Of a stretch of DNA of 37,251 nucleotides, positions 4,547 to 5,546 are shown one piece after another. Source of the DNA: Clostridia bacterium (GTDB lineage Bacteria; Bacillota; Clostridia; Oscillospirales; Acutalibacteraceae). The stretch is taken from positions 1-37,251 of the forward strand of contig JAGAMK010000017.1 of assembly GCA_017624735.1 (NCBI GenBank). Direction: 5' to 3'. How positions within the stretch are numbered: position 1 is the first letter of the stretch; each line of letters starts with the position of its first letter. Under the pieces are notes generated by a model, which ran no database searches, was not told the origin of the DNA, and was given only the letters and a program-made list of their open reading frames with translations. The translations under genes and the position numbers were made by a program.

Positions 4547-5341
4547 TTATTCTTTAAGTGCATCCATACTTAAAAGAATGTCACTGTCACCCATTACTGT
4601 TGGCAACTCGCCATTCCACTTGCTCCACTTGATGTAATCAACATAATCTGGTGATTCTGCAAGAGCATCCTGAATAAGCTTGATACTTTCTGCCTCAGCC
4701 TCTGCCTGTGTAATCTTTTGTTTTGCTTCAACCTCAATACGAGCAAGGTCTTGTTCTGCTTTCAAAGCATTCTGCTGTGCTGTCTGCTTTGCTTCAACAG
4801 CTGCGTTGAATTCTTCAGAAAAATCAAAGTTTACGATATTGAAAATCTCAACTGTAAGACCATACTGATTGATTTTTTCTGACAAAGCATCTTTAATCTG
4901 TTCGCCTACTGTCTGACGTTTTGTAATAAGTTCTTCAGCAGTATATTGTGCTGTTACGGCTTTAATGCTTTCCTGAATTGCAGGTACAATAACAACTGTA
5001 CCGTAGTCAGTGCCCACATTTTGATAAAGGGTTGCTGAAGAATCATTATTAACATGATAGTTTACTGCAACCACATAAGAAATAATCTGCAAATCTTTTG
5101 AAGAAGCACTACCATCGGTTTCAATTTTCTGAGTACGATTATTCATCTGCACTACCCTTTGAATAAAAGGAATTTTGAAGTGCAAGCCTTCGTCAAGGAC
5201 TGTATCCTCAACTGCACCGAATGTAAGTACAACACCTGTATGACCTGCTGAAACTACAGTGAAGCTTGATATTGCTACAACCACAACAAGAATTGCACAC
5301 GCAGCAATTACTGCTATTTTTACTATTTTTTTTGTATCCAT
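4547..5341 (-). CDS. SPFH/prohibitin (band 7) family membrane protein
   Basis: A 264-residue protein with one N-terminal membrane segment (about residues 6-28), then an SPFH domain (about 28-190) recognisable from VVSAGHTGVVLTFGAV, DEGLHFKIPFIQRV and the following helix VPAIQESIKAVTAQYTAEEL. A charged, Ala/Glu/Gln-rich coiled coil follows (about 185-240, AEQDLARIEVEAKQKITQAE). Family members form large rings at the membrane and often guard proteases such as FtsH; no protease gene is next to it here. The start at 5341 is chosen because AGGAGG (5348-5353) lies 6 bases upstream. A longer reading to 5398 would begin inside the leader terminator and is rejected. It is a single-gene unit with its own promoter and a structured leader resembling a manganese riboswitch. 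Confidence 0.88.
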   Translation of the reverse strand: MDTKKIVKIAVIAACAILVVVVAISSFTVVSAGHTGVVLTFGAVEDTVLDEGLHFKIPFIQRVVQMNNRTQKIETDGSASSKDLQIISYVVAVNYHVNNDSSATLYQNVGTDYGTVVIVPAIQESIKAVTAQYTAEELITKRQTVGEQIKDALSEKINQYGLTVEIFNIVNFDFSEEFNAAVEAKQTAQQNALKAEQDLARIEVEAKQKITQAEAEAESIKLIQDALAESPDYVDYIKWSKWNGELPTVMGDSDILLSMDALKE

Positions 5342-5383
5342 ATTTATCCTCCTGCTTTTTCTTTTTCCTATGATAGAGTAATC

Positions 5384-5509
5384 AAAAAACTCATACACAG
5401 CGAAAAACCATGTATGAGTCTCATTTACTTATGACACACCGAAGAGAAAATCTCTTGTCCTGACGATGATGTCTCGCATTATTTATTTTGCGGAATTACT
5501 CCCTCATAT
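5384..5509 (-). promoter_or_regulatory. Candidate yybP-ykoY (manganese) riboswitch with terminator
   Basis: Read on the minus strand, the leader has the family landmarks in order: a 5' P1 strand TATGAG (5508-5503) running into GGGAGTA, a hairpin CCGCA...TGCG, the core segment ATCGTCAGGAC, a hairpin AAGAG/CTCTT, and a closing TGAGACTCATA. The CTCATA there (5418-5413) can pair with the 5' TATGAG to close P1, or with the later TATGAG to form a terminator, ACTCATACATGG...CTGTGTATGAGT followed by T6 (5419-5384). The two pairings exclude each other, which predicts an ON switch: ligand closes P1 and blocks termination. Family assignment comes from remembered consensus and has not been tested with a covariance model. 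Confidence 0.68.
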
Positions 5510-5517
5510 TGTCATTT

Positions 5518-5546
5518 ATTATAACATATTCCCATAATTCTGTCAA
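5518..5546 (-). promoter_or_regulatory. Consensus sigma-A promoter of the SPFH gene
   Basis: On the minus strand TTGACA (5546-5541) and TATAAT (5523-5518) are both exact with a 17-base spacer. Start of transcription would be near 5511, just before the riboswitch-like leader. Confidence 0.85.

Follow-up and report, generated by a model that had tools for sequence, protein, structure and literature searches.

The window, the whole stretch of 37,251 nucleotides analysed here (contig JAGAMK010000017.1, from a member of the Acutalibacteraceae), carries a gene for a prohibitin-like SPFH protein behind a structured leader (Table 1). All parts of the leader lie on the minus strand at the place given in a preliminary description of the sequence, confirming its existence. 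That description had let the leader span 5339..5546; the landmarks are in place there, but these coordinates include the promoter, so the RNA should begin near position 5510. The promoter is the sole perfect match among four promoter-like sites in the window (2.0 expected), and the fold of the leader beats 200 of 200 dinucleotide shuffles (z = -3.79). A simple terminator scan listed none at 5384-5420, a miss that we think is due to its stem extension consuming the T-run, as the fold shows the hairpin.

The SPFH gene is taken to be alone in its unit because the next gene is convergent. The earlier view of its product as prohibitin-like was right: the best solved match to a profile of five such proteins is prohibitin-2 (8rrh_B, E = 2.2e-40), with HflC and HflK next. 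The protein stays under the NCBIfam equivalog cut-offs for both hflK (TIGR01933, 61.7 of 159.4 bits) and hflC (TIGR01932, 46.7 of 134.4 bits). An FtsH-type peptidase is encoded in the same genome.

Table 1 Features of the SPFH locus in the order of transcription (R2, lineage covariance model described in the text)
Feature	Position	Strand	Basis
Sigma-70 promoter	5518..5546	-	TTGACA (5546-5541), 17-nt spacer, TATAAT (5523-5518); 12/12 consensus bases
yybP-ykoY-type aptamer lacking helix P4, 98 nt	5412..5509	-	R2 68.6 bits, E 3.8e-14; E 4.9e-13 genome-wide
Helix P1.1, 5' strand UAUGAG	5503..5508	-	Partner 5418-5413; 94.0% of helix cells pair (14-leader alignment)
L1 motif GGGAGUA, first G in P1.1	5497..5503	-	Identical in 93/94 leaders
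Helix P1.2, 5' strand	5494..5496	-	Partner 5425-5423; A-U/G-C exchange, 100% of cells paired
Hairpin P2	5475..5492	-	Alignment and covariation of leaders
P3.1, L3 and P3.2	5433..5473	-	P3.1, 5473-5464 with 5441-5433; P3.2, 5456-5452 with 5446-5442
L3 loop UCAGGAC	5457..5463	-	A5461 corresponds to the adenosine that binds Mn2+ in reference loops; NCA in 92/94 leaders, 2 gapped
Helix P1.1, 3' strand CUCAUA, common to terminator	5413..5418	-	6/6 bases inside terminator stem
Intrinsic terminator	5384..5420	-	Fold -17.1 kcal/mol, then T-run
Stretch complementary to aptamer 5' arm	5368..5383	-	Duplex -14.2 kcal/mol against shuffled mean -3.9; 0/200 shuffles as good
Ribosome binding site AGGAGG	5348..5353	-	Read from sequence
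Prohibitin-like SPFH/Band_7 gene, 264 aa	4547..5341	-	Pfam PF01145, E 2.8e-38; ATG 5341-5339

Homology of the leader

Infernal with RF00080, the Rfam model on which the preliminary description had staked its assignment to the yybP-ykoY family, gave no match to the leader, an outcome that the same description had named as refuting: at gathering scores Rfam finds nothing in the window, and at E<=10 the leader has five Rfam matches, RF00080 not among them. This silence at either threshold favours a rival explanation, in which an unrelated, hairpin-rich 5' leader resembles the family by chance. RF00080 is, however, an insensitive and poor judge in this lineage. Its one place in the whole genome is weak (15.5 bits, E = 0.034) and is a leader of like layout directly before mntP, the gene for Mn2+ efflux; it lies, as does the leader of the window, under the cut-off of 45 bits; because this mntP leader was nearly missed, RF00080 alone was rejected as a test. 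The E. coli alx leader also scores under the cut-off, and so do all 20 class-level loci matching the lineage model R2 (below), two of them matching at E<=0.01. Across 249 genomes of the phylum, RF00080 gives matches at E<=0.001 in 50, and seven pass the cut-off.

Two covariance models built from leaders of this lineage support the yybP-ykoY assignment. R1 comprises eight leaders (that of the window, three from congeners, one from genome G057 and three from genome G055), six of them before SPFH genes. At E<=0.05 it has matches at 91 places, spread over 86 of the 394 genomes searched in the order, and scores the own-genome mntP leader at 38.9 bits. R2 comprises 75 of the 94 leaders of alignment A3, all before non-SPFH genes, mostly those of cation exporters; the 19 leaders before SPFH, flotillin, Na/Pi, OAD_beta, CitMHS, unknown or doubtful genes are excluded, with the caveat that the leader set was collected with R1. 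This SPFH-free model matches the leader of the window strongly (Table 1), and in the genome as a whole it yields two places only at E<=5, the mntP leader (76.4 bits) and the SPFH leader (68.6 bits). It also matches each of the 17 leader-bearing sources supplied, one of them twice (18 matches in all), whereas at E<=1 neither E. coli alx nor any of 10 leaderless SPFH loci gives a match. R2 matches all of 20 loci chosen with RF00080 (the first 20 of 30; E from 9e-15 to 0.0025), seven of which are over Rfam's own cut-off; R1 reaches only four of the 20 at E<0.01, two strongly. E. coli alx is non-significant with both models (R1, 14.5 bits, E = 0.42; R2, 10.4 bits, E = 3). The call made in the preliminary description is thus right by homology, in that the lineage models link the SPFH leader both to cation-exporter leaders and to loci chosen with RF00080.

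Of 147 genomes sampled in the order, none has an RF00080 score over the cut-off, against 86 of 394 with R1 matches at E<=0.05, which suggests that Mn2+ leaders of the order are under-annotated, with the qualification that samples and thresholds differ. With the leader as query, a DNA search was clearly positive only for three congeners and for two genomes belonging to other families; at E<=1, 56 of 59 genomes show some match, mostly by chance. In two such loci (L006 and L007, 1501-1550) the similarity is limited to the terminator part; their leaders presumably belong with the Mg2+ (ykoK, M-box) type, ahead of an mgtE-like gene.

Architecture, covariation and the metal loop

The features found are those by which yybP-ykoY riboswitches are recognised: helices P1.1, P1.2, P2, P3.1 and P3.2, an L1 motif opposite AGA, and a 7-nt L3 loop with adenosine in third place. 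The AGA partner of L1 stands ahead of the P1.1 3' strand in eight of eight rows of alignment A1, the alignment behind R1, in which the G057 row is partly misaligned (unpaired in 8 of 26 column pairs) and was kept in the model; a further alignment, A2, was poorer than A1 and was dropped. Scanning of SPFH loci gave 14 leaders, of which 13 stand before SPFH genes and the last before a Na/Pi-type gene next to one. In these, two-sided changes affect 12 of 26 pairs (mean after shuffling, 5.9), including four of nine in P3.1 and four of five in P3.2, and 95.1% of cells pair, compared with 29-53% in slid controls. In the set of 94 leaders, 93 of them distinct, two-sided changes affect 24 of 26 pairs, with 95.6% of cells paired and a covariation score of 0.636, compared with 0.227 after shuffling. 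As each alignment had been fitted to the model, these values are biased in its favour. Taken with the R2 matches to the window and to 20 of 20 RF00080 loci, this covariation in both sets speaks against a chance likeness, and given the match to an SPFH-free model that rival is very unlikely, with a probability close to nil.

The helix P4 of the crystal-structure four-way junction is missing, and the RNA is therefore filed as a P4-less, three-way-junction variant. Not even a three-pair hairpin occurs at this position in 94 leaders of the order, in 30 of the class (best R2 matches only) or in the 14 of the SPFH scan, these zeros carrying a selection bias because the models favour short linkers. 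In its place these leaders have a linker of 5-11 nt (median 7). At 13 of the 20 RF00080 loci, a hairpin of at least four pairs is found there; the other seven include some true short linkers (L301, L306, L307) and some probable misalignments (L292, L294). A separate observation concerns Rfam SSRC10 (RF02617, Streptococcus sRNA 10), which matches the P4-less leaders L281 (1502-1614), L286 and L290 below its cut-off. It is alike in the short linker where P4 would be and differs in being filed in Rfam as an sRNA; at a guess, it may be the same kind of RNA, that is, a streptococcal Mn2+ leader.

The L3 sequence given for the L. lactis riboswitch is UCA41AUUC and that for X. oryzae is ACA48UACU; in each, the numbered adenosine binds Mn2+ through N7 (PMC6754395). 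The leaders of this lineage contain both types. All nine SPFH leaders of A3 are UCA-type (counted by eye; automatic classes placed six of seven prohibitin-like rows under 'other'), as are those ahead of the Na/Pi and OAD_beta genes and of two CitMHS genes out of three, and leaders before MntP genes are ACA-type (14 of 15 as aligned; in the exception, L098, the alignment has slipped and the loop reads ACATACT). This partition would suit a retuning of the same fold, by which the P4-less, UCA-type SPFH leaders answer another divalent ion or another Mn2+ threshold. However, UCA-type loops also occur in the L. lactis Mn2+ riboswitch, in E. coli alx and, among the present leaders, before P-type ATPases and Na/Ca exchangers, and the correlation between loop type and target is confounded by relatedness; we regard such retuning as unlikely. 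An altered-ligand subclass defined by L3 sequence is likewise weakened by the alx loop, which by eye reads UCAUUAC after AUCG where the window has UCAGGAC after AUCG, and by the identical TCAGGAC ahead of two ATPase genes (L052 and L054).

Distribution of the leader before SPFH and other genes

The preliminary description regarded an SPFH gene as an unusual target. Pfam assigns the frames downstream of the 91 R1 places (the longest frame within 420 bases, a choice that seems to have picked the wrong frame in L131 and L136 and a partial one in L104) to P-type ATPase (49), Mntp (15), Na_Ca_ex (9), Band_7 (6, two with Flot), CitMHS (3), GDT1 (2), OAD_beta (1), Na_Pi_cotrans (1) and a small remainder. 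Most places thus lie before genes for P-type ATPases, Mntp and Na/Ca exchangers, and six of the 91 places in the 394 genomes precede SPFH genes, four prohibitin-like and two flotillin-like, the latter two belonging to another family of the order. In the class, R2 matches 154 of 391 genomes at E<=0.001; none of 29 such loci checked by eye lies before an SPFH gene.

The search for the same leader before SPFH genes of relatives, which had been proposed as a check, showed the pairing of leader and SPFH gene to be present in several genera. Of 203 confirmed SPFH relatives, 80 were retained in the scan of named genomes, in records that are mostly metagenome-assembled Clostridia from ruminant and deer guts. 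The leader stands ahead of 13 of these 80 genes: 13 of the 20 with at least 69% identity and none of the 60 with 61% or less. Within the genus, a close ortholog (at least 89%) is present in four of 39 genomes, each time with the leader, and 10 genomes have a homolog of 45-48% identity without it. Seven of the 20 closest relatives in the scan have no leader, none being seen when the upstream DNA was inspected. Regulation would appear dispensable, because several close orthologs do without it, and this could be read as a sign that the leader is a constitutive relic, duplicated from an exporter leader and since devoid of regulation. Set against this is the persistence of the aptamer core, the compensatory pairs and the terminator overlap in 14 distinct prohibitin-type leaders, and we consider a relic highly improbable.

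Several other arrangements were seen. Genome G055 (L032:2696-5618, together with L031) has three such leaders, one before the SPFH gene, one before the adjoining Na/Pi-cotransporter-like gene and one before a gene of unknown family (L031:1685). Tandem leaders, 51 bases apart, lie ahead of an apparent P-type ATPase gene (L289:1501-1593 and 1645-1733). By eye, L275, L280 and L291 (match at 1501) have the leader ahead of an ABC-transporter ATPase-like gene, another unusual target. The leader in L116 precedes an oxaloacetate-decarboxylase beta subunit, and, from the Pfam tally and inspection by eye, those in L066, L124 and L130 precede CitMHS-type transporters.

Predicted switching and comparison with known systems

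At the level of sequence, the promoter, the homology of the aptamer, the conserved metal-loop bases and a terminator incompatible with helix P1.1 are established. The competition between terminator and P1 claimed in the preliminary description is borne out in all 17 leaders folded: the terminator takes six of the six P1.1 3'-strand bases in 16 (14 prohibitin-type and two flotillin-type) and five of six in the own-genome mntP leader. A terminator that shares P1.1 is the arrangement of the L. lactis riboswitch, an ON switch (PMC9190785, PMC11087558). By analogy with the solved relatives, the P1.1 3' strand would join the terminator when Mn2+ is absent and transcription would stop, whereas Mn2+ bound between L1 and L3 would keep P1.1 closed and allow RNA polymerase to read through. 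We thus consider it highly probable that this is a yybP-ykoY-type riboswitch sensing Mn2+, built as a three-way junction without P4, that turns on a single-gene prohibitin-like SPFH unit at high cytosolic Mn2+.

The stretch immediately after the terminator (Table 1) may add to this. When its complementarity to the aptamer 5' arm was compared with mononucleotide shuffles, the duplex was better in 13 of the 14 prohibitin-type leaders at p<=0.035 and reached p = 0.06 in the remaining one (L197); L031 also passes. The flotillin-type leaders (0.94 and 0.25) and the Na/Pi leader (0.71) are not above shuffles, and p<=0.05 is also reached by 12 of 81 further leaders. The 15 duplexes (the 14 and L031) comprise 11-17 pairs; at one position of the arm A-U and G-C replace each other, and the pairs beyond the core vary. 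This conservation is suggestive only, because the 14 leaders are relatives. Read-through RNA alone could form the duplex, which would preclude the aptamer; at a guess, it might act as a stabilising stem at the 5' end. A bolder reading, which we hold to be rather unlikely, is a two-stage device in which the P4-less, UCA-type aptamer decides co-transcriptionally on Mn2+, after which the post-terminator stretch captures the 5' arm, dissolves the sensor and locks a message-stabilising 5' stem, the product being a prohibitin-like cage, induced by Mn2+, that would direct FtsH proteolysis or the metalation of membrane proteins. Since the local fold after the terminator does not consistently hide the ribosome site, we do not propose a second switch at the level of translation.

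For the Mn2+-induced ON switch itself, the consequence would be a membrane scaffold, perhaps acting with FtsH, that protects or remodels membrane proteins in Mn2+ excess, beside MntP, whose gene is the sole other one of the genome found with such a leader; this step is less certain than the switching. Two studies bear on it: in B. subtilis, FtsH and the rhomboid protease YqgP remove MgtE at high Mn2+ (PMC7231995), and FtsH, FloT and FloA co-purify with the TerC-type exporters MeeF and MeeY (PMC10550928). A Mn2+-induced prohibitin-like scaffold would fit both sets of findings, and we infer both the Mn2+ dependence of the SPFH leader and the link to a partner protease. The yybP-ykoY targets named in print include transporters (PMC3766115) and Mn homeostasis genes (PMC9334652). 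Among open-licence full texts, a body that mostly leaves out the subscription papers in which an earlier report may stand, none was found that connects yybP-ykoY with SPFH, prohibitin, stomatin or HflC, and the connection with flotillin is confined to the TerC work. A Mn2+ switch ahead of the gene for a membrane scaffold, not a metal pump, suggests that Mn excess also controls membrane upkeep, and a metal riboswitch ahead of prohibitin-like and, separately, flotillin-like genes offers a testable signal, Mn2+ excess.

Like prohibitin and HflK/HflC, the SPFH protein of the window combines an N-terminal hydrophobic stretch with the SPFH domain; its best solved matches are prohibitins, and it falls below the family cut-offs for hflK and hflC. 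The predicted Mn2+ riboswitch control is a feature of the window gene, none having been found in print for prohibitin or HflC. The closest comparison within the genome, the mntP leader (G000:C65:66563-66649), has the same P4-less architecture and P1.1-sharing terminator and scores higher with R2; it differs in its L3 (ACATACT against TCAGGAC in the window), and by eye a comparable post-terminator complement is not seen in it. With the yybP-ykoY riboswitches (RF00080; L. lactis yoaB, X. oryzae yebN and E. coli alx), the leader of the window has in common the L1 motif, helices P1.1, P1.2, P2, P3.1 and P3.2, the 7-nt L3 with its Mn-binding adenosine and, as in L. lactis, the P1.1-sharing terminator, but it is without helix P4, lies under the Rfam threshold and has as its target an SPFH scaffold rather than an exporter.
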